From NCBI GenBank assembly GCA_947588735.1, contig CANQAD010000014.1:1-37479 (forward strand): a stretch of 37,479 nucleotides of DNA, read 5' to 3'. The notes beneath the pieces are model-generated. The model was given only the letters and a program-made list of their open reading frames with translations, was not told where the DNA came from and ran no database searches. The position numbers were made by a program, and so were the translations under genes. The DNA is from an uncultured Akkermansia sp. GTDB lineage: Bacteria > Verrucomicrobiota > Verrucomicrobiia > Verrucomicrobiales > Akkermansiaceae. Positions 4,024-26,430 of this stretch are shown here, one piece after another. The first letter of the stretch is position 1; each line of letters starts with the position of its first letter.

Positions 4024-4037
4024 CTACGGGGGATAGG
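4024..4037. other. Left attachment site (attL core) of the integrated element
   Basis: CTACGGGGGATAGG here is repeated exactly at 13283-13296, where it forms the 3' end of tRNA-Val. This copy is an isolated tRNA 3' fragment with no tRNA body beside it, which is what integration into a tRNA 3' end leaves at the distal end. 4038-4361, between it and the first gene, has no gene; it holds two CACCCC motifs (4076-4083, 4089-4096) and a hairpin (4322-4350). Confidence 0.8.
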
Positions 4038-4321
4038 TGTCATTTGCATTCATTTTCAACGCGTTTCCGAAGTGACGCACCCCTTTTTGTCACCCCTTCG
4101 GGCGTATTGTGAGAAATTGTGTCATACCGTATCAAACGGCAGGGAAATGATAGACGGAAGTTTTCCATGTGCGAGCACCATTTTATGATCAGATTGGAGA
4201 AAATTCAAGTGATTTTTTGGCGTCCTTCTTTGCTCGTTATTTCTCACCCGTTTTTGCGTGTGTTTTTCTTTGGATCAGGATAATTTCTTTCTTGCGTTCT
4301 ATTTTTCAGCGGTTTGCGTGG

Positions 4322-4350
4322 TATCCTGCGGCTTGGAATACCGCAAGATA
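4322..4350 (-). terminator. Hairpin downstream of the primase-ATPase operon
   Basis: A 10-bp stem, TATCTTGCGG / CCGCAGGATA, with a 9-nt loop lies 11 bases after the ATPase stop. Read on the minus strand every position pairs (one U-G). Read on the plus strand one pair becomes C-A, so the structure fits a minus-strand transcript. No U run follows, so it is not a textbook intrinsic terminator. Confidence 0.45.
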
Positions 4351-4361
4351 CTTTTCCCCTC

Positions 4362-6170
4362 TCATTCTTCATCATCTGCTTCCTCACCCGGGAACACGAG
4401 TGCAGCGGGGATGAAAATTGCCTTGTCTCGTTTCTTGCCGTTAGCGGCGGATGAGATATGGACGCCCCGGCTGTTCGGCTTGCTTCCCTTGCAGCCCGCT
4501 GTCAGAACAGGCTTGATTTTACCCATCCAACGTGTCCCGGAGTACACTTTCTTGAGTTGAGCATTGTAGGGTCGCACTTCCAACTCATCTTTTTTATTCC
4601 TCCACCGCATTCCATTCGCTTCGAGAGCCTGAACCGCCTCCGATACGTTTCCGGAATCGTTCTCATCTCTCACCATTCGGCAGAGTTGCCTCACGTTCCT
4701 GTCTCCGCCCATGAAGTGAACCGTCCAATCCAGCAAGTGATTTAAGCATTCGTCAAACTCGCTTGTTTGCTCCTCGGTTTCCGCATAAGCCCGTGCCACC
4801 TCTGCCGCCTGCGCCATGTCAGCCGCGCGCATCTTGCCACCGTGCGTCAACGCGTAGCTCCCCGCCAGTAAGTGCGCCATCAGTTCCGCCCGCCGCGCGT
4901 CTTTGAGATCCTGATTCAGGTACGCCGTGAGATTCTCCACGTTCTCTTCTATCGCCGCCGCCTGCTGCATGAGGCGGCAAAGCAATCGCCCGGCAAATCC
5001 TTCGCGTTTCACCATCTCGCGCCCTTTCTTCTGTCGCTCCCACAGCTCCTCCTTCTCAGCATCCGGGAGAGGCTGCATCCGCAACTCCAAGCATCGTGTC
5101 CTGTCGGTGTCCTGTTCAAGTTGCGAGTGGACGGAGAAATTGAGGAACCCGCAACGCACCATGTAATCCTTCGCCGTGCCATCCTCCCCGCCCTTGGTGA
5201 AAATACCCGTTTGGCTCGAATACGCCGTGCGCATCAGCGCGAGTACATCCGCGATATTCTTCCGCGCCGTCTGGTCTCCGTTCCCCTCCAGCTCATCAAA
5301 CACCACCGGGCGCGCACAGCTCGCTATTTTTTGCCGCGCGCCTGCGGCTGATGTTGCGGCTCCTTCCATGGCCAAACACAGCCCCTCCGTCCTGTCCTTC
5401 TCGAAACCGAAAACGCTCATCACGTCATCATGCAAATAGCTCTTGCCTGTCGCCGCGGGAGCTGTAATCCACAAGTGCGGACGCCGCTTCATCACCCCGG
5501 CCAATGTGCTGTTGACAATCCACCCCACCAGCAACACACCCGCCCCCGCCTTCATCTCCCATGGTCGCTCTGCAAAGAATGCCACTAGCTCGCGCCCCTC
5601 TTGGTCTGTGAGAGGCGCATCGGCGGGCGCGGGCATCGGTGTTTCCGAGCTGTAGATATGACGCTCCTGCATATTGTCCACCTTCTGCGGCCTTTCGCCT
5701 CCTTCAGCTACGAAAAAGCAAGCATTCCCCGCGTTGTACAAAATACCGCGAACACCATCCACTTCCTCCTCCCACATCCCGATCTTGCGCAGTCGTTCCG
5801 GGTCTTCTCTCCCTACCTTCCGAGCTTCCTCAAACAGTCGAGCTTTCGCCGCCTTCCATATCTTCGCCTCGTGCTCCTCCGCCCATTTCTCATTTTCATC
5901 GGGGAAGAGCCATGCCGCCCAGTCCATCAAATTCGCCTGCTGCAAGAAGTAATCCGCGCGGTGCTCATTCGGCTTGAGATCAATCGAGCAGTGCCGGACA
6001 GGCACGTAGTACCGCACGGTCTTCCCGTCTTTCAGATACCCGAGAGGAATCATCGGCGGCAGTTTCTTCGTCGCCTCCTCGCGCGCCCTCTGCTCATTGA
6101 TTGCAACGCGCTCAGCCGCTCCCTCCTTCAATTTCATACGGGCTTTTCGCCCTCTGTCGATCTTGTTCAT
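4362..6170 (-). CDS. P-loop ATPase / replicative helicase-like protein
   Basis: 602 residues from the ATG at 6170, which overlaps the primase stop in ATGA; this coupling is why I chose it over the longer open frame reaching 6284. Walker A is APAATGKS (237-244), Walker B VVFDELEG (289-296), and a possible arginine finger sits in DRTRCLELRM. The N-terminal third is charged and not recognised. Placement after a Toprim primase suggests it is the element's replicative helicase, as in P4-type and PICI primase-helicase modules, but helicase activity is inferred from the P-loop and context. It is the last gene of the reverse operon. Confidence 0.72.
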   Translation of the reverse strand: MNKIDRGRKARMKLKEGAAERVAINEQRAREEATKKLPPMIPLGYLKDGKTVRYYVPVRHCSIDLKPNEHRADYFLQQANLMDWAAWLFPDENEKWAEEHEAKIWKAAKARLFEEARKVGREDPERLRKIGMWEEEVDGVRGILYNAGNACFFVAEGGERPQKVDNMQERHIYSSETPMPAPADAPLTDQEGRELVAFFAERPWEMKAGAGVLLVGWIVNSTLAGVMKRRPHLWITAPAATGKSYLHDDVMSVFGFEKDRTEGLCLAMEGAATSAAGARQKIASCARPVVFDELEGNGDQTARKNIADVLALMRTAYSSQTGIFTKGGEDGTAKDYMVRCGFLNFSVHSQLEQDTDRTRCLELRMQPLPDAEKEELWERQKKGREMVKREGFAGRLLCRLMQQAAAIEENVENLTAYLNQDLKDARRAELMAHLLAGSYALTHGGKMRAADMAQAAEVARAYAETEEQTSEFDECLNHLLDWTVHFMGGDRNVRQLCRMVRDENDSGNVSEAVQALEANGMRWRNKKDELEVRPYNAQLKKVYSGTRWMGKIKPVLTAGCKGSKPNSRGVHISSAANGKKRDKAIFIPAALVFPGEEADDEE

Positions 6171-7300
6171 ATTTCGTATTTGTTCAAAATCATATCGTCC
6201 ATCAGCTCCACCGGATTGCTCATCGTGTACACCGTGCGTACGTCCTTCGCCGCTCCCTCCGGACTCCATGCAAACACCCGGCACACCCCCGCGCCCTTCA
6301 AAATCTTCGCCGTCGCCACAGCCCCCTTGCGTCCCGCTTCATCGTTATCCACGCACAGCATCACATCCTTCCCCTTCAGCACCGCCGCCCATGCCTCCCG
6401 AAACGTCCCCGCATCCGGCTTGGCCACCACCACAGGCGTTTCCCGCTCCTCCGGATAGCTATCCGGCTCATTGTGGCTCCACCATTCCAGCCACGCCCAC
6501 AACGCCGCCCGCGCCGCAAGCGCATCACTCTCCCCTTCCGTGATGATCACCAGCTCACTTTCTCCTATCGCATCCGCGCCGAATAAAACCTGCTTATGCG
6601 AACCCTTCCCGCACAGAAAACGCGGCTCGCCCTTCCATCCCCTCCGCTTCGTCATCACCGCGCGCACCGCCCCGGTTTCATCCCGGCAAGTGTAAACATA
6701 CAGCAAATGCCCATCAGCCTCCAGCCCCAGCATCCCCGCTTCCGCAAGCTCCCTGTCTGTATGCGCCATCAGCAAATCCAGCGGAAGCCCCAGCTCATCC
6801 GCGTACCTCTGCATTCCCTGCGCACTCGCCGCCGCCCGTCGCACTGCCGCCCATGCTGCCGCCTCCGCTTCGGCGGGCAAATAATACCGCGCGTTTCCCT
6901 CATCATCGGCGCGCTCCACCGCCGCCTGCCTCTTCGGCAGTGCTACCTGCCGCCGCCCCCTGTTTCGCTCGCTTCGCGGCGCGTCCGCATCCGGCAAAGC
7001 ACACCCCGTCACCTGCGCCACGTGCTCCACCACGGCGCGAAAATCTCGCCGCGCATCCATCCCCAGAACACCAGCCGCCACATCAATCACCGAGCCGCCT
7101 TTACAGCACGCCCGGCACATTGCCACGCCCACGCCGTCCTTCTCCGTCACTTCCAGCTTCAACCGCTCATGCGAACCCCAAGGGCAGGGGTAAAACACCA
7201 GCCTGCCCCGCCGTCGCCCGTTGCCAAGCTCTTTCGCGCAATACGCGTGCAACACGTCCGGACTCTTCAGCGCGCCTAACTCGTTAGCACCCCAACTCAC
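6167..7300 (-). CDS. DnaG-type primase with CHC2 zinc finger and Toprim domain
   Basis: 377 residues starting at GTG 7300, 5 nt after GGAGGT. A CHC2-like zinc finger is seen at C39, H44, C62 and C65 (YPCPWGSHE; MCRACC). The Toprim domain has its glutamate in VIITEGESDALAA (E256, D260) and the DND metal motif at 319-321 in MLCVDNDEAGRKGA. It would make RNA primers for element replication. It is shorter than cellular DnaG (~600 residues) and lacks the C-terminal helicase-interaction domain; the separate ATPase whose start overlaps its stop by ATGA may serve that role. The central region is alanine/arginine-rich. Confidence 0.85.
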   Translation of the reverse strand: MSWGANELGALKSPDVLHAYCAKELGNGRRRGRLVFYPCPWGSHERLKLEVTEKDGVGVAMCRACCKGGSVIDVAAGVLGMDARRDFRAVVEHVAQVTGCALPDADAPRSERNRGRRQVALPKRQAAVERADDEGNARYYLPAEAEAAAWAAVRRAAASAQGMQRYADELGLPLDLLMAHTDRELAEAGMLGLEADGHLLYVYTCRDETGAVRAVMTKRRGWKGEPRFLCGKGSHKQVLFGADAIGESELVIITEGESDALAARAALWAWLEWWSHNEPDSYPEERETPVVVAKPDAGTFREAWAAVLKGKDVMLCVDNDEAGRKGAVATAKILKGAGVCRVFAWSPEGAAKDVRTVYTMSNPVELMDDMILNKYEI

Positions 7301-7388
7301 GGCTCACCTCCTCGATCACCGTTGGCAGAAGTTCCCGTATCAATACCGGCTGACCAATCCGCATCGTTTCATTTTTTCCCTCTTCCAT
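7284..7388 (-). CDS. Small ORF of 34 residues with strong ribosome site
   Basis: ATG at 7388 to TAA at 7286-7284, predicted MEEGKNETMRIGQPVLIREL and on to ...EEVSRELGC. It begins inside the last codons of the upstream HTH gene in another frame and ends inside the primase start region. Its start is preceded by GGAGGT at 5-nt spacing, in the same 13-bp context (GAGGAGGTGAGCC) that precedes the primase GTG 88 bp downstream. It could be a real small protein, or a leader that couples translation from the HTH gene to the primase. No homology is claimed. Confidence 0.45.
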   Translation of the reverse strand: MEEGKNETMRIGQPVLIRELLPTVIEEVSRELGC

Positions 7389-7752
7389 GGCTCACCTCCT
7401 CCACTTTCCACGCCGCCTCCAAATCCGCCACGTTATACCGCGTATGCCCCTTTTCACCGGCGGCACCCGTGGGGCGTATCATTCGCACCTTCCCCTCAGC
7501 CTTCAACCTCCGAAGATATGAAAACACACGTTCCCGACTTATTCCGAAATGTTCAATGATCTCCTTCGGAGCCATCCATTGCTGTACATCTGCCGCCGGG
7601 TGCTTCTCCAGCTCGTGCTTCACCATGGCTAGCAACCATTGCAACCCGATAGACAACATCTCCGGTGTTGCCACAGGTGACCCCCCGCCGATACCTAGCA
7701 ACCGTGCCAACACCTGCTTTTCATCTTGCCCTGTACCCTCTTCCACATTCAT
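7369..7752 (-). CDS. Winged-helix/MerR-like DNA-binding protein
   Basis: 127 residues from the ATG at 7752, which overlaps the upstream stop in ATGA and has GGAGGT 6 nt before it; an upstream ATG at 7797 would overlap more. The C-terminal half has a helix-turn-helix WMAPKEIIEHFGISRERVFS followed by a basic wing and TRYNVADLEAAW. That last motif parallels RYNLAEVETWL in the preceding 75-residue protein, so the two are likely related. Probably a regulator or replication accessory of the element. The N-terminal half is not recognised. Confidence 0.6.
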   Translation of the reverse strand: MNVEEGTGQDEKQVLARLLGIGGGSPVATPEMLSIGLQWLLAMVKHELEKHPAADVQQWMAPKEIIEHFGISRERVFSYLRRLKAEGKVRMIRPTGAAGEKGHTRYNVADLEAAWKVEEVSHGRGKK

Positions 7753-7976
7753 GCTACCACCTCCCCTCTCTTCCCCGCTGCGCGCGTTTTGAGCCATGTT
7801 TCCACCTCAGCTAAATTGTACCGCGGGCGTGATCCCCTCCGCGGTTCCATCACCCTGCCTATGTAAACACACGGGCATCCTTCTTTAGTCCATCTTGAAA
7901 CCAACGCACGACTGACACCTAATTTTTCAGCCAATCCACACGCGTCAAACATCGTTGTTTTAGGTATAGCGTCCAT
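7749..7976 (-). CDS. AlpA/excisionase-like HTH protein
   Basis: 75 residues: a helix-turn-helix GLAEKLGVSRALVSRWTKEG (15-34), a basic stretch MEPRRGSRPRYN and the closing strand-helix AEVETWL, the layout of MerR-type excisionases and AlpA regulators. It is the first gene of the reverse operon. In P4-like and PICI elements such proteins control excision or activate the replication module. Its promoter -10 hexamer (7983-7988) lies only 6 bp before the ATG, so the transcript is predicted to be leaderless. A downstream ATG at codon 9 is a possible alternative start but has no ribosome site. Confidence 0.7.
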   Translation of the reverse strand: MDAIPKTTMFDACGLAEKLGVSRALVSRWTKEGCPCVYIGRVMEPRRGSRPRYNLAEVETWLKTRAAGKRGEVVA

Positions 7977-7982
7977 GTGAGT

Positions 7983-8011
7983 AATATAGTATAATATGAT
8001 CTACATGTCAA
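7983..8011 (-). promoter_or_regulatory. Promoter of the AlpA-like/primase operon
   Basis: TTGACA (8011-8006), a 17-bp spacer, then TATATT (7988-7983) on the minus strand: a near-consensus sigma-70 promoter. Initiation about 7 bp downstream would fall at or next to the ATG at 7976. Confidence 0.65.
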
Positions 8012-8041
8012 CAAAAAATTCATTATTTCACAAAACCCATA

Positions 8042-8069
8042 TTGACTTACTAAAATAATATGCTACAAT
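8042..8069 (+). promoter_or_regulatory. Promoter of the divergent HTH gene
   Basis: TTGACT (8042-8047), 16-bp spacer, TACAAT (8064-8069), pointing toward the gene at 8094. The control region 7977-8093 holds two copies of ATAATATG followed by CTACA, at 7991 (2-bp gap before CTACA) and 8055 (no gap), each overlapping one of the two promoters. These are candidate operator half-sites. Confidence 0.55.
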
Positions 8070-8093
8070 ATATACATTCACAGAGACAAAACT

Positions 8094-9014
8094 ATGGACA
8101 ACACAACTGAAAAATCGAACAGAGAAGAATCTCTCAAACATTTCAAAACTCGCGTTCGCCAGTGGATGCGGGAGCATAAAAAATCCGCAAAATGGCTTGC
8201 CGACAAAATTAACAAGGCGGAAGGTAGTGTGAAGAATTGGCTCTATAGCTCTCTAAACATCACGGATGAGAATCAACGAGCTATCGAAAATGTCATGCTG
8301 AGATATGAGCAAGGTGGCTATGTGTGTCCCGATTCACCAAAGAAATTCACTCCCCTTTTCATAGCGATAAATCTTTTTTCAAGTACCCAGCCCAATAGTG
8401 ATATCCTCCTTCCTGAGTACCCCTTCTGGTGTAATGCCGCTGGAGTATCACCGAGCATTTTCACCTGTCGAATGGAAGAAGATATATCGCCTGATTTTCC
8501 CGAAAAAGGATACGCAAACAGAACAGAAATTCTCAAGCTTGCAAACTGGGCAACGTCCGCTATAATGCGCCATGCCGCTGCTATTTTGCAAAAAGAATAT
8601 GATTCCGCCAAGACGGATGAAGAAAAACAAGAAAAAATAAAAAAACGATTCTCTGAGTTCTCTTCGGATGGGGGAAGCCGAACGGAAGAAATCCTTCCAG
8701 GCAATACAATAAGAGGGACCTATGACTTGATTATAAGGTACTATGAAAAAGAAGATGAGGAGCCGAGGATGACGTTATACCTACCAGTCATTGAGGAGCG
8801 ATGGAAGGGTATATATGCGGAACTAGCTGCGAATATATCGAGAAAGTCAACTCATGCTTGGATTGTAGAAACACTCAATAGGGAGGCTCGCAAAGACAGC
8901 ATAATCAATCTTGGTGATTTCCTAGCCCAAATGGGCAATACTCCGGAAGAAGATACGGTTGAAGACGAAATACCGGAAATTCAGGAGGAACGCAACGACG
9001 ATATCCCCTTCTGA
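8094..9014 (+). CDS. HTH-containing protein of unknown family; candidate element repressor
   Basis: 306 residues, the only rightward gene of the element, and visibly more A+T-rich than its neighbours. Residues ~16-60 resemble a helix-turn-helix (FKTRVRQWMREHKKSAKWLA then INKAEGSVKNWLYSS). The remaining ~240 residues match no family I know: a middle region with aromatic and cysteine residues, a lysine/glutamate-rich helix around 165-190, and an acidic C-terminal tail. Its position, back to back with the AlpA-like operon across a shared promoter region, is that of a master repressor such as PICI Stl or a phage CI. That role is inference from context. Confidence 0.6.
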   Translation: MDNTTEKSNREESLKHFKTRVRQWMREHKKSAKWLADKINKAEGSVKNWLYSSLNITDENQRAIENVMLRYEQGGYVCPDSPKKFTPLFIAINLFSSTQPNSDILLPEYPFWCNAAGVSPSIFTCRMEEDISPDFPEKGYANRTEILKLANWATSAIMRHAAAILQKEYDSAKTDEEKQEKIKKRFSEFSSDGGSRTEEILPGNTIRGTYDLIIRYYEKEDEEPRMTLYLPVIEERWKGIYAELAANISRKSTHAWIVETLNREARKDSIINLGDFLAQMGNTPEEDTVEDEIPEIQEERNDDIPF

Positions 9015-9194
9015 CATCCTCGCTCCCCGTTTTGCTCATGCGCGGCTCGAGTCCCGTGGGCATTCCCTCATGAGGTTGCACGAAGTTATCATTTGTTGCA
9101 AAACCACCCCAGCAATCCCTAGCGACAAAGCCTTTTCCTTTGTTGCCGGTTTCCGTCTCGTTTCCCGTTCTGCATGGGTTCATCATAGGGAGCG

Positions 9195-9249
9195 ACATCG
9201 TACCAACCACCGGCGGAGCCTCAGGGCAGGTCAACACCACGTACGATGT
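9195..9249. repeat. 9-bp inverted repeat after the nuclease gene
   Basis: ACATCGTAC (9195-9203) and GTACGATGT (9241-9249) are perfect complements around a 37-nt loop, ending 4 bp before the stop codon of the DUF262-HNH gene on the minus strand. It lies between two converging genes and could be a transcript-end structure; there is no U run. The rest of 9015-9252 shows nothing recognisable. Confidence 0.4.
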
Positions 9250-9252
9250 GCA

Positions 9253-10362
9253 TTATGCCTGCGCGCCCTTCCTCAGGTTGCAATCCCGGCAGAGCATCTG
9301 ACAATTTTCCGGCGTTGTTCTGCCCCCTTTGCTCCACGGCGTGATGTGATCGGCGTGCATCTCACCAAATGGAAATTCCTTGTTGCATATCGTGCAGCGG
9401 TGTTTTTGCCGCTCGTAAGCTGCCAAGGCGTCGCGCCTGTCAAAAGTGCGGATGGATAGCTTCCTCTCATCCCCGGTAAGCAGGTACTCATAAATCCCGC
9501 TCTTACGCGTTACATCTTCATCCCCCATCAGTCGTCCCACCTGCTCTTCGAGTTTTTGCGGATCAAGATCCGTGCGCGTGCCGTGCTCATTATACATCAG
9601 CCCCCACGGCAAGCCCTTCATTTCCTTGCGCTTCTTCGGGAATATGGCCTGCACCCAATCAATCACCGAGCGAAAATAAGTCCACAGAGCAACCGCACTC
9701 GGATCATTCTGATGCTCTGCCATGTACTCTTCAATACTCTTTCCTTGCGCACTTGCCGCCCAAAGTATAGCCGTTTCCAGATAATGCTGACGAATACTCT
9801 CTCCCTTCAGGTAATCCCCCGCCATTCGAGCCGCCGGGCACCCCGTCCTAGAAAAGTAGCGTTTCGCGTCAGCCGTCCAGCTTCCGGCATACACTGCATT
9901 GCGCAGTTCCTGATCGCTTAGCTCTTCCCCGGCTATATTGATGATGCGGAACCACTCCAACTTCTCGCTCTCTGTTCCGTCACAAGTGTACACGAAAAGC
10001 TTGTAGCCCAAAATCTCCCTCTGCTTATCCCTCGGCAAGTTGTGGAAAAACAGCCCATCCACTGCAAAGCTTCCCCTCACGTACTCGCATAGTGAGAGTG
10101 TACGCTGCTGCCCATCCATCACCTCATACCCCGCCGAACCGTCCTCCTTCTTTACCCGGCACCAATAGATCACATTGAGCGGCAGTCCCTTTTTTACAGT
10201 TCGTATCACCTCATCTCTCTGCGCATCCTTGTACACAAACTCCCGCTGATAAGGCGGGCGTATGTCCAATGCTCCTCCATAGCCGCTCACTCCCTCTTCT
10301 GCATCGTTTGCGTACCCTTCGCAGACTTCCCCCACAGTGACTTTTAACTCTTCTATCTTCAT
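9253..10362 (-). CDS. DUF262 plus HNH endonuclease protein
   Basis: 369 residues from the ATG at 10362, chosen because it lies 7 nt after the methyltransferase stop; the longer frame would run into that gene. The N-terminal DUF262 (ParB/GmrS-like) domain shows RPPYQREFVY (35-44) and the signature DGQQRTLSL (83-91). The C-terminus is a zinc-bound HNH nuclease: C323/C326 and C358/C361 as zinc ligands, HADHITPWSKGG with H339, and N353. DUF262 is the N-terminal domain of GmrSD-type restriction enzymes that use nucleotides and cut modified DNA. The adjacent methyltransferase suggests restriction or defence. Whether it cuts methylated or unmethylated DNA cannot be read from the sequence. Confidence 0.82.
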   Translation of the reverse strand: MKIEELKVTVGEVCEGYANDAEEGVSGYGGALDIRPPYQREFVYKDAQRDEVIRTVKKGLPLNVIYWCRVKKEDGSAGYEVMDGQQRTLSLCEYVRGSFAVDGLFFHNLPRDKQREILGYKLFVYTCDGTESEKLEWFRIINIAGEELSDQELRNAVYAGSWTADAKRYFSRTGCPAARMAGDYLKGESIRQHYLETAILWAASAQGKSIEEYMAEHQNDPSAVALWTYFRSVIDWVQAIFPKKRKEMKGLPWGLMYNEHGTRTDLDPQKLEEQVGRLMGDEDVTRKSGIYEYLLTGDERKLSIRTFDRRDALAAYERQKHRCTICNKEFPFGEMHADHITPWSKGGRTTPENCQMLCRDCNLRKGAQA

Positions 10363-10369
10363 GGTATCG

Positions 10370-11465
10370 TTATTTTGTTCGCGTTTCAGGTTGCTTATTA
10401 CGGATGAGTATGCGGGCATAACGGGGTTTGCCCATAATCGCCACTCGCCCGCCGACAAGAAACTCCTTAGGAACAGTGTATCGATCGAGTCCGATAATTT
10501 CAAATTGCTCTGGATTGTACTTATTCATAAAAGAAATCGGCACACCCATCACCCCATCATAATCACAGGGGATATCCACCGTTTTACTGACCTCAATCGC
10601 ATCGTAATTATCGTAGTGCGGGTATTCCTCCGGAGTGTAATGGCGGAAAAGAATCATCCGCTCATGACGCTTCTTGTAATCTAGATTAGTAAACCATGTC
10701 ACATTCCTGAAATGGACCAACCCTGTGCTAGGGTCATACACACCGGGTGCAAACTCACGAGCATTTTCTTTAGGAATTAAAAAATGAGAATCTCCCCCTT
10801 TGAAACCATATCCCAGCCACATCTTGTTCTCTTTGATAAGTGGGAAAATCTCCTTGTATGTAATCGCGTTCTGGTTGCCAATGATAAGGAACTTCTTGCC
10901 GTACTCCACCAACTGCGCCACGTACTCACGAAAAAGTGAGAATGGCGGGTTGGTCACTACAATATCGGCCTCCTTGAGAAGCTCGATGCACTCCGCACTG
11001 CGGAAATCGCCATTCCCTTGCAGCCGCTCAATGGGAATCTCTCCGGACTCGATGAGAGCCCTCACATCCCGCATATCTACAGCATTATCCCCCGTCTTGT
11101 CATAAACCTTCGTGACCACAGCCTTGTACGGTGTGCGCTCAGTCTCCGGCTCCTCAAAAAGCATGAGTTGCTGCCCGGCAATCGGCGAGCCTGCATAGCA
11201 CGTGGCAATCAGTTTTTTGAGCTTCAAGCGTCCAAAATTGAGCACAAAATACTGAAAAAAATTGCTCTCGTACGGATCATCACAGTTACAGAACACCGTC
11301 TTCCCGGCAAAGTGCCCCGCGTAATGTTGCAACTCGTTGCTGATATCATTGAGCTGCGTGTAGAATTCATCTTTCTTCCCCTTCTTTGCTAAATGCAGAG
11401 TTATGTTATCAGAACTCTTGCGGGGGGGGGGTAGTAACTAGTTCATTATCAATACTTTGCGACAT
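10370..11465 (-). CDS. EcoRI-family adenine-specific DNA methyltransferase, phase-variable, OFF here
   Basis: EcoRI-type adenine N6 methyltransferase. The conserved N-terminus KKGKKDEFYTQLNDI, CNCDDPYESNFFQYF, and the catalytic NPPF in DIVVTNPPFSLF are all present. The conserved frame is open from 11437 to 10370 but contains no ATG, GTG or TTG before KKDEFYTQ. The only ATG reading toward it (11465) is separated by ten C at 11431-11422 and is one base out of frame, ending in TGA at 11411-11409 after 18 codons. Nine or twelve C would give ~364 residues starting MSQSIDNELVTTPPPRKSS. A truncated start at TTG 11332 would lack conserved residues. A good promoter precedes ATG 11465. The DUF262-HNH gene follows by 7 nt. 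Confidence 0.85.
11422..11431. repeat. Mononucleotide tract (G10 on plus, C10 in the gene)
   Basis: Ten identical bases in the first codons of the methyltransferase gene, long enough for slipped-strand mispairing. It sits between the start ATG (11465) and the conserved N-terminus. Only lengths of 9 or 12 (3n) join the two frames; 10 and 11 both give early stops. Confidence 0.9.
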
Positions 11466-11489
11466 ATTTCAAGGTAGCATCCTAAAGAC

Positions 11490-11518
11490 ATTCTACCCTA
11501 AAAAAGCTACTGAGTCAA
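11490..11518 (-). promoter_or_regulatory. Promoter of the methyltransferase-nuclease module
   Basis: TTGACT (11518-11513), 17-bp spacer, TAGAAT (11495-11490) on the minus strand. Start of transcription near 11483 leaves a leader of about 18 nt before ATG 11465. The ATG at 11491 overlaps the -10 and cannot be used. Confidence 0.65.
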
Positions 11519-11688
11519 GTTCTTTTCACCTTAGCATTTCTTGGCAAACAGCTTACCGGCGTAATTGTGTGTGGAGGGGGGGTGAAACAAAAATCATTTT
11601 TTCGGAAAAGAAATAGCCGTATTTCGGGGTGTATCCAGCCGCGTGGGAACGTCTCTCCGCACAGTACCTTCACCCGAATTCATCCGCC

Positions 11689-11772
11689 GGAATACTTCTT
11701 GCACATATCTGGATACTTATACGACAATTTAGAATACTTTTTCAATAAAATAGAATACTCCTTTTATTGTAT
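11689..11772 (+). repeat. Four direct repeats at exact 21-bp spacing (iteron-like)
   Basis: Cores AATACTT, GATACTT, AATACTT and AATACTC begin at 11691, 11712, 11733 and 11754, exactly 21 bp apart (two helical turns), in an A+T-rich stretch. Two inverted copies (GATACTT and GATACTA on the minus strand) lie at 11811-11817 and 11803-11809. Spacing on one DNA face suggests cooperative protein binding: a replication origin for the primase/ATPase, or regulatory sites for the integrase or methyltransferase. 11519-11688 and 11820-11925 hold no gene I can support. Confidence 0.7.
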
Positions 11773-11925
11773 TTCCCTTAATAATAAACAAATAATACAG
11801 CATAGTATCCAAGTATCCCGCCATGCGGTGATCTTTTTCGCGCGCGCATCCGCGCGATTCTGCCGCCTCCGGCAGGCTCAAGCACCTCACCGCCATCATC
11901 CGCCGCGGTTCGCCGCGGACCGCCG

Positions 11926-13104
11926 TCACACCTTCCTCAGTGCTTCCTCAAGCACCTCACCCACCTTTGCCCTCTGTTCCGCCGTAGCACTGAAATACCC
12001 CCGCTCCACCTCTTCAGAGCTATGCCCCACAGCCTCCCGCACCACATCCGCCGTCAGCCGCGAATCTGACCGCGCAACGGACACCACCGTATGGCGAATG
12101 CTGTGAAACGACTTGCGACTCACCCTGTGGCGGTTCCCCGTCAGCGGCTTCCCATCATCATCCGGCAAAATCCCGAACGCCCTCAGCAAAGCCGTGAACT
12201 GCGTGGACACATAGCTGGGGCTATGATTATACCTCTCAGCCATCGATGGGAACACATATTCATCCCCCGGCAGAGCCGCCTTCAGCCGCCGCTCCAGCAA
12301 AGAGCGCAGATCATCCCTCAGCAGAATCTCGCGCTCCTTCCCCGTCTTCTTTTCCCTCAGAAAAATCACCCCTTTTTCAAAATCCACCCCGCTCCACCTC
12401 ATCAGACACACATCCGAAATACGCAACCCATTGCAAAAATACGCCACCGCCACCATATCATTCCAAGGATCAGGAAAATCCGTAATCATCTGTTTAATCT
12501 CCTCCGCCGTAAACGCCTCCCGCCTCTGCGAAACTATTGAAACACCCGCCCCCTTTGCCAACTTCGCCACACTCACCCCGTCCCACGGATTCCCATAAAT
12601 CACCCTATCGCGCACCCCCTTATCAAAAGCCATCTTCAAATACACCCGGAAAATCTCCACTGTCCGCGGCGAAGCCTGCCGAAACTGCGCTAACACAAAC
12701 GCCCGGCAATCCTCCCCCGTCACCGCATCCACCCGTTCCTCCGCCCTCGCCCCCAAAAACCTGATAAAAAGCACATGCGCCCGCCTCCGGTTACTCTCCG
12801 AACTCGCCGCCGAAGTCGCAGGCACACTATCCAGCAACTCCCGCACCGACGGCACAGCTCGCCCCAACCCGCAAGCCTCACCAGCCGCCCTCACGGCATC
12901 CATAATCTTATCCAAAGGACACTCCCCCTTCGCCGCCAGCTCCATATTGTCCGCCGCCAACTGCGCCGCCCTTTCCGCCGCCCGCGCATTCATCCCAACC
13001 TCCCCCTTAATCCGAATCCCCGTTGACTTCATCACCTTCTTCCCGTCCTGCTTCCAACACGCATAAAAACAGGAACGCCCGCTTAACTTCTGCAACCATG
13101 CCAT
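11926..13104 (-). CDS. Tyrosine recombinase / integrase
   Basis: 392 residues. Catalytic residues: R228 in NGLRISDV, a lysine in the beta-hairpin REKKTGKE (K253/K255), H334 and R337 in HSIRHT, H361 in GHSS and the nucleophile Y370 in RGYF. The N-terminal region (~90-175) is a SAM-like core-binding domain. It integrates and excises the element by recombination between attP and the 3' end of tRNA-Val; its gene lies 179 bp from the right attachment core, the usual arrangement. No ribosome site is evident before ATG 13104. The distal gene order suggests it is transcribed separately from the methyltransferase. Confidence 0.92.
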   Translation of the reverse strand: MAWLQKLSGRSCFYACWKQDGKKVMKSTGIRIKGEVGMNARAAERAAQLAADNMELAAKGECPLDKIMDAVRAAGEACGLGRAVPSVRELLDSVPATSAASSESNRRRAHVLFIRFLGARAEERVDAVTGEDCRAFVLAQFRQASPRTVEIFRVYLKMAFDKGVRDRVIYGNPWDGVSVAKLAKGAGVSIVSQRREAFTAEEIKQMITDFPDPWNDMVAVAYFCNGLRISDVCLMRWSGVDFEKGVIFLREKKTGKEREILLRDDLRSLLERRLKAALPGDEYVFPSMAERYNHSPSYVSTQFTALLRAFGILPDDDGKPLTGNRHRVSRKSFHSIRHTVVSVARSDSRLTADVVREAVGHSSEEVERGYFSATAEQRAKVGEVLEEALRKV

Positions 13105-13156
13105 AATCGTAATATCTATCTATTCTTCTTTCAACTTCCGGGGCGGAGGTACACCG

Positions 13157-13189
13157 CGTACCCCCATCGTACCCCTGAAGCGTACCCCC
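13157..13189 (+). repeat. Three CGTACCCC direct repeats upstream of the integrase
   Basis: CGTACCCC occurs at 13157, 13168 and 13181 between the integrase start and attR. Similar octamers, CGCACCCC (4076) and GTCACCCC (4089), lie just inside attL. They are candidate arm-type integrase or excisionase sites. The match on the left side is imperfect. Confidence 0.5.
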
Positions 13190-13221
13190 TCTCTATCATA
13201 CCCCACCAAACCAAGACAAGC

Positions 13222-13253
13222 AAAAAGCCCGCCGTCTCTAGGACTCGCGGGCT
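13222..13253 (-). terminator. Intrinsic terminator after the tRNA operon
   Basis: On the minus strand AGCCCGC (13253-13247) pairs with GCGGGCT (13232-13226), followed by TTTT. It lies 31 bp past the 3' end of tRNA-Val. Because it is inside the element, the element has supplied the terminator now used by the tRNA transcript. Confidence 0.75.
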
Positions 13254-13282
13254 AATCAAACTCAATCAAACTATCAAATTCG

Positions 13283-13296
13283 CTACGGGGGATAGG
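13283..13296. other. Right attachment site (attR core)
   Basis: Exact copy of the 14-bp core at 4024-4037. It covers the 3' T-stem strand, 3' acceptor strand and discriminator of tRNA-Val, so insertion leaves the tRNA complete. Confidence 0.82.
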
Positions 13297-13356
13297 ACTC
13301 GAACCTACGACCTCCACCATGTCAAGGTGTTGCTCTACCAACTGAGCTACCTCCGC
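13284..13356 (-). tRNA. tRNA-Val (anticodon GAC)
   Basis: 73 nt without encoded CCA. Anticodon loop TTGACAT on an ACACC/GGTGG-type stem gives GAC, valine. T arm GTAGG-TTCGAGT-CCTAT. The acceptor strands GCGGAGG and CCCCCGT pair imperfectly: G1-U72 and an A5-C68 mismatch. It is the insertion site of the element. It lies 9 bp downstream of tRNA-Tyr on the same transcript. Confidence 0.88.
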
Positions 13357-26052: not shown

Positions 26053-26430
26053 GTTATTTACGAATTACGATTGACGATTGACGATTTACAATTTGAAAAA
26101 GCTAGCGAGCCGGAGGCTCGGGAAATGCGGAGCAGTAGCGACGGGGGAGGGCGGAACCGCGCGCAAGACTAATGAGAAAGCTGAGTGGAGGAGCGAGGTT
26201 GAAACACAAGGGGATTTTCGAGTTACGATTTTTGATTTTCGATTTGGGAAATTTGCGCGCTGGCGCGCGGGAAGGCGAAGCGCTCTGCCATTTTCGTCCG
26301 AACAAAACGCATGGGAAATGGGTTGAATGAGCCCGGAGAATATTTTATTGGGACACGTGTGACGGCAGCCAAGGCAAACGCGTGGAAAATGCGTTTGCTC
26401 ATTTACGATTGACGACTTTCGATTTACGAT
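26053..26430. repeat. Dispersed composite repeat, copy 2, with heptamer arrays
   Basis: Tandem 7-bp units ACGAATT, ACGATTG, ACGATTG, ACGATTT, ACAATTT at about 26058-26093. The block 26153-26360 matches 131-311. A hairpin GCAAACGCGT/ATGCGTTTGC (26374-26398) is followed by more heptamers to about 26430. The gene-free stretch 26009-26497 is mostly this repeat. Confidence 0.8.

Follow-up and report, generated by a model that had tools for sequence, protein, structure and literature searches.

The origins of PICIs comprise two sets of iterons around an A+T-rich region and lie directly 3' of rep (PMC6092414). SaPI Rep recognizes its iterons through the C-terminal domain, the SCCmec helicase Cch is related to SaPIbov1 Rep, and the C-terminal domain of Cch2 binds AAGTG direct repeats (PMC7581432). 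A two-site layout is annotated in the record of P4, where type 1 repeats (GGTGAACA) occur both at ori and at crr, the latter lying directly 3' of alpha. The order in that record is int, att, crr, alpha, ORF88 (AlpA-like), ori. Here, we describe an iteron array in a 37,479-bp stretch of Akkermansia DNA (the window) that, judging from sequence, is very probably the main replication origin of a PICI/P4-like satellite integrated at tRNA-Val. We read it this way because the repeats have a periodicity far beyond chance, their geometry recurs in sister elements, they enclose an A+T peak, and they lie in a precise mobile unit that encodes its own primase and an initiator-type AAA+ helicase.

The direct iterons (minus strand, where the word reads AAGTATYC) are four copies of GRATACT at positions 11690 to 11760, starting at 11690 (GAATACTT), 11711 (GGATACTT), 11732 (GAATACTT), and 11753 (GAATACTC). 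The start-to-start steps are 21, 21, and 21 bp, as an earlier note on this DNA had claimed from the letters alone. The AATACTT-type core proposed there fits the copies at 11690 and 11732 but, taken strictly, fails at the second and fourth. Its two inverted copies are AGTATCC on the plus strand (11804 to 11818), starting at 11804 and 11812 (8 bp apart), with the second reaching one base further than the note had it. The spacer between the two sets (11761 to 11803) is 79% A+T, compared with 47% in the element, and is a candidate melting region; it forms part of the highest A+T peak in the element, which the divergent promoter region near 7984 equals. Both the copies and the sets are separated by roughly whole helical turns. 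The array lies about 107 bp past the integrase stop codon and about 225 bp upstream of a methyltransferase reading frame.

Using dinucleotide-preserving shuffles, we looked for four copies at a fixed period with 6 of 8 columns invariant. This pattern appeared in none of 2000 shuffles of the 593-bp gap holding the array and in none of 200 shuffles of the element, whether the period was set to 21 or allowed to take any value from 10 to 40. GRATACT is found 10 times in the 37,479 bp, with 6 of the 10 inside the 129 bp of the array (local shuffles: mean, 0.06; maximum, 2). When we instead counted the best 7-mer with one transition-degenerate position within 201 bp, a statistic free of any given word, the count of 6 was reached in 1 of 1000 shuffles. 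The window also contains a GATTTTC heptamer array at 191 to 233 and again at 26213 to 26255, both outside the element, which is apparently a dispersed chromosomal repeat.

The element spans positions 4038 to 13296 (9,259 bp) and is inserted in the 3' end of tRNA-Val. Its 14-bp att core, CTACGGGGGATAGG, is present on the plus strand at 4024 to 4037 (left copy) and at 13283 to 13296 (right copy), the latter being the 3' end of the tRNA-Val gene (13284 to 13356, minus strand). We place the bounds here because a related genome (G065, locus L183) carries the empty site, in which the left and right window flanks adjoin, with an overlap of exactly the 14-bp core. Like PICIs and SaPIs, the element combines this site-specific integration by its own integrase with an AlpA-type regulator.

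The minus strand encodes a tyrosine integrase (11926 to 13104; Pfam Phage_integrase, 5.6e-17), an EcoRI-type adenine methyltransferase (10370 to 11465; Pfam EcoRI_methylase, 1.7e-128, and reading frames), a GmrSD_N (DUF262)-HNH endonuclease (9253 to 10503; Pfam), an AlpA/excisionase-like HTH protein (7749 to 7976; phrog_66, 2e-7, and relatives), a small winged-helix/HTH protein (7369 to 7797; Pfam FaeA, 4e-4, with relatives in sister loci L015, L016, L019, and L023), a TOPRIM primase (6167 to 7300; Pfam Toprim_2, 6e-7; phrog_239 DNA primase/helicase, 1e-15), and an AAA+ helicase. One HTH protein, a possible repressor (8094 to 9014, plus strand), is divergent from the remaining genes; it has a relative in L015 (32% identity) and no family match in Pfam or PHROGs. 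The methyltransferase and the adjoining nuclease are cargo and form an unusual restriction-modification-like pair (9253 to 11332). The N terminus of the methyltransferase is split by a C10 tract (11423 to 11432) and has no in-frame start: the ATG at 11465 opens MSQSIDNELVTTPPP and then enters the tract (11423 to 11465, minus strand). A change in tract length would join the ATG frame to the M.EcoRI-like N terminus (...LHLAKKGKKDEFYTQ), and the tract is possibly a phase-variable switch or else an assembly error.

Among the main reading frames of 4038 to 13296, Pfam and PHROGs gave no phage structural or lysis gene and no terminase or other packaging gene. The sole terminase-type signal was a phrog_57 match on the AlpA-like protein, which probably reflects the shared HTH fold. 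The gap sequence had no blastn match in plasmids, and the relatives identified in named records come from Akkermansia and Akkermansiaceae.

The array adjoins the integrase gene, and similar words form a weak set about 300 bp away from the att core at the other end, as might be expected if the repeats served the integrase as arm-type or excisionase sites. The array, however, lies past the 3' end of the integrase gene, at about 1.5 kb from the att core, and the att-integrase gap is filled by a set with a different word, GTACCCC, at 13158, 13169, and 13182 (13158 to 13188, plus strand). These are probable integrase arm sites; CACCCC at 4078 and 4091 (4078 to 4096, plus strand) may be arm sites at the other element end. 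Two sister elements likewise carry att-proximal words (GGTGTACA in L016 and GGGTATACA in L019) separate from their origin words, and the annotated arm repeats of P4 are a separate set from its type 1 ori repeats. As the att-proximal position is taken by this other repeat set, we rejected the arm-site reading of the array and consider a role as recombination sites extremely unlikely.

The gene that would act at the proposed origin is the helicase (4362 to 6170, minus strand), which probably starts at the ATG at 6168 to 6170, overlapping the primase stop. Searches against PDB sequences (phmmer and profile search) returned nothing meaningful, and fold comparison alone worked. The best fold match of its AlphaFold model (pLDDT, 82) was SCCmec Cch (5dgk; Z, 18.2; 345 residues), with SaPIbov1 Rep (8tch) among the next families. 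A predicted winged-helix-like domain at the C terminus (4365 to 4799, minus strand) is the presumed iteron reader. Folded alone (pLDDT, 86), this domain matched residues 452 to 556 of SaPIbov1 Rep at a modest Z of 5.6, tied for first place with a relaxosome accessory protein solved on oriT DNA and followed by the DNA-binding domains of HSF and ETS; Foldseek gave no significant match for the isolated domain. The model therefore has the MCM-like AAA+ fold with a predicted DNA-binding C-terminal domain seen in Cch/SaPI-Rep initiator helicases. Homology to P4 alpha was rejected, as hhalign aligned 34 Walker A columns only. No element protein matched a Rep_3/RepA-type initiator (the WH1-WH2 Rep of iteron plasmids, RepE/pPS10 type) in Pfam. 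Relatives of the helicase occur in 10 other genomes of the genus and in 1 of another genus in the family; IMG/VR holds 395 confirmed relatives, which, among the matches listed, are distant (best, 28% identical).

Sister elements share the integrase, AlpA, primase, and helicase in varying completeness and often adjoin a tRNA gene. The earlier note had proposed searching for the array in related elements, and what is conserved there is the architecture and not the word. GRATACT at 21-bp spacing was present in only 1 of 254 family genomes, that is, in none besides the source, so the conservation is one of geometry only. The exact word at this spacing was also found on 37 IMG/VR contigs, which we set aside as unrelated repeats since the stretches examined held no relatives of the element proteins. 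In de novo repeat searches, most relatives clustered a different word in a comparable gap and had a further cluster of it immediately 3' of the helicase: GGTAGACA (also given as AGGTAGACA) in L015, GGTAGTCA (also given as AGGTAGTCA) in L016, GGTTGCAC in L019, and GTTTACA in L021 and L022. In L020, TTGTAGTA occupies the gap on the primase side and recurs 3' of the helicase, and L017 carries TTTGTAGTA past the integrase. In L018, whose other element end is off the contig, GTGGTCA/GGTAGTCA lies 3' of the helicase. The longest array (L026:13683-13788) has six copies of GGTATGTC at exactly 21 bp, and three inverted copies, 21 bp apart, lie upstream of it; both clusters are 3' of the helicase. L023, L024, and L159 to L161 had no such array despite related primases or helicases.

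We then described the geometry without reference to any word, as two copies 8 bp apart, 38 to 58 bp, and at least three opposite-strand copies in steps of 9 to 12 or 20 to 22 bp, with one mismatch allowed. A scan of 302 kb gave four matches, each in an Akkermansia element past the 3' end of the integrase gene: the window array, L015:1443-1558, L016:6355-6448, and L019:11455-11543, the last three with the words GTAGACA, GTAGTCA, and GTTRCAC. Block shuffles gave no match in 1.17 Mb. As the limits were chosen after the spacings were known, the scan is not an independent discovery of the sites; its information lies in the absence of any other fit in the 302 kb and of any fit in the shuffles. The spacings (inverted pair / distance to the direct set / direct steps) are 8 / 51 / 21,21,21 in the window, 8 / 52 / 11,21,21 in L015, and 8 / 42 / 12,9,21 in L016, and looser forms of the geometry are found in L017, L019, and L021.

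This recurrence bears on whether the array could be an operator through which a transcription factor of the element (the HTH protein at 8094 to 9014, the AlpA-like protein, or the helicase) controls the methyltransferase-nuclease operon that starts near 11465. The short distance to the methyltransferase frame would suit such a role, and helical spacing suits regulators too. The sisters, however, keep the same geometry with other cargo: in L015, the closest relative, two adjacent terminase-small-subunit-like genes (L015:1675-2765) come directly after the array. Moreover, the AlpA/HTH divergent promoter region (7977 to 8093), where a regulator would be expected to bind, contains no GRATACT, and an operator has no need of two opposed sets around an A+T peak. 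Operator function is thus quite improbable. The terminase small subunits themselves support a satellite lifestyle and point to phage-satellite packaging in L015.

The suggestion in the earlier note that the repeats could be either the origin of the element or a control region is therefore supported, and the comparison favors the origin. The same geometry stands beyond the integrase 3' end in sisters with quite different cargo, most sisters repeat their own word 3' of the initiator helicase gene in the manner of P4 ori1 and crr, and the predicted fold of the helicase is that of Cch/SaPI Rep.

In the window, the second cluster just 3' of the helicase (about 4320 to 4352) has imperfect copies, GGTATCC on the plus strand and GGTATTCC and AAGTATCT on the minus strand. 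It was nonsignificant over whole gaps and stood out only when the gaps were narrowed after the fact. It is also weak on its own because it is one of about six such clusters that passed the loose threshold of a PWM scan of the window, which placed it at 4318 to 4350. We next compared the integrase-side gap (in L020, the primase-side gap) with the helicase-3' gap for shared words. The test was positive in L015, L016, L019, L020, L021, and the P4 control, none of the 60 shuffles for each reaching the observed count. By count, L017 and L158 passed as well, the winner in L017 being an A+T-rich word and not an iteron. The P4-type feature of one iteron word at both sites is thus strong in L015, L016, L019, L020, L021, and P4 and weak in the window, where the second cluster is probably a real but weak counterpart of the strong second cluster of the relatives and of P4 crr.

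Iterons of iteron plasmids often also serve copy control. The array could accordingly be a set of partition or copy-control (incompatibility) iterons, with the true origin in the cluster 3' of the helicase, the position described for PICI origins (PMC6092414). Yet the 3' cluster of the window is the weak one and has no A+T peak, no element protein searched matched ParA or ParB (Pfam and PHROGs), and in P4 it is the far site, corresponding to the array, that is annotated as ori, the site 3' of alpha being the accessory crr. We regard this alternative as very unlikely and the integrase-side array as very probably the origin.

The word seems to go with the helicase and not with the primase. L158 appears as a natural module swap (L158:10029-11531), with an L021-like primase, a replaced initiator, and a replaced iteron word. 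The L158 and L021 primases are 75% identical, the next gene in L158 encodes an unrelated 500-amino-acid P-loop protein (weak DUF5906), and the L158 word is ACAGGGTA, compared with GGTTTACA in L021, and is again found in both gaps. Since L158 keeps the primase and changes both partner and word, the sequences suggest a pairing of word and helicase. The two do not track simply, as L017 and L020 have a common word and helicases only 32% identical. Tentatively, and with more doubt than confidence, we suggest that the Akkermansia satellite family combines one rigid origin geometry (an inverted pair at 8 bp, four or five helical turns of A+T-rich DNA, and direct copies at helical spacing) with element-specific words. 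The words might act as origin identities that exclude one another and are read by a C-terminal winged-helix domain that changes fast; coresident satellites would then not fire each other's origins.

Set against the known systems, the window element resembles PICIs and SaPIs (EcCI PICIs; SaPIbov1 Rep) in its two iteron sets flanking an A+T-rich region, in a pri-rep module with separate primase and initiator helicase genes, and in a predicted initiator fold that includes a similar C-terminal domain; its sister L015 also carries a terminase small subunit. It differs in that the strong array is on the integrase side and not directly 3' of rep, where only the weak cluster lies, in having no terminase small subunit among its main frames, and in its host, Akkermansia (Verrucomicrobiota). 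With P4 ori1/crr it shares the two-site arrangement (the second site being weak in the window), words of similar GTnnnC build in both orientations at about 10- or 21-bp spacing, and, once circularized, the gene order int, att, crr, initiator, AlpA-like, ori. In contrast to P4, alpha homology of the Akkermansia helicase is limited to the Walker A region, primase and helicase are separate genes, and no P4 packaging genes were seen in the window element. Among the SCCmec Cch/Cch2 initiator helicases, Cch is the best structural match of the modeled helicase. Pattern 2 SCC elements prime with CCPol-MP, and SCC elements use serine recombinases, whereas the window element has a tyrosine integrase and a TOPRIM primase. 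The element thus appears to work in the manner of PICI/P4 satellite replicons, its initiator being of the Cch/SaPI-Rep type and its layout of two sites P4-like. We do not class it as a member of P4, the alpha homology being absent beyond the Walker A region, and it departs from PICIs in one feature, the origin 3' of rep.

After excision, the helicase would bind the word through its C-terminal winged-helix domain, presumably as one oligomer per set, melt the spacer, and load two opposed helicase rings. The TOPRIM primase would then prime, and the host polymerase would copy the circle. Word copies 3' of the helicase may form an accessory binding region like P4 crr, which in the window is weak and may be decaying.

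The layout is known from phage satellites elsewhere; in the Akkermansia elements, the geometry is kept and the word changed. In the literature searched, we found no description in these terms of PICI/P4-like satellites with a recognizable origin in Akkermansia. The geometry can be searched for without knowing the word, which may help to find satellite origins elsewhere, and a vector that replicates in Akkermansia could be built on the origin. The several naturally diverged word-initiator pairs are a ready set for studying how a Cch/SaPI-Rep-type helicase reads iterons. For the host, the finding places PICI/P4-like satellites with a recognizable origin in Akkermansia, a prominent gut genus.
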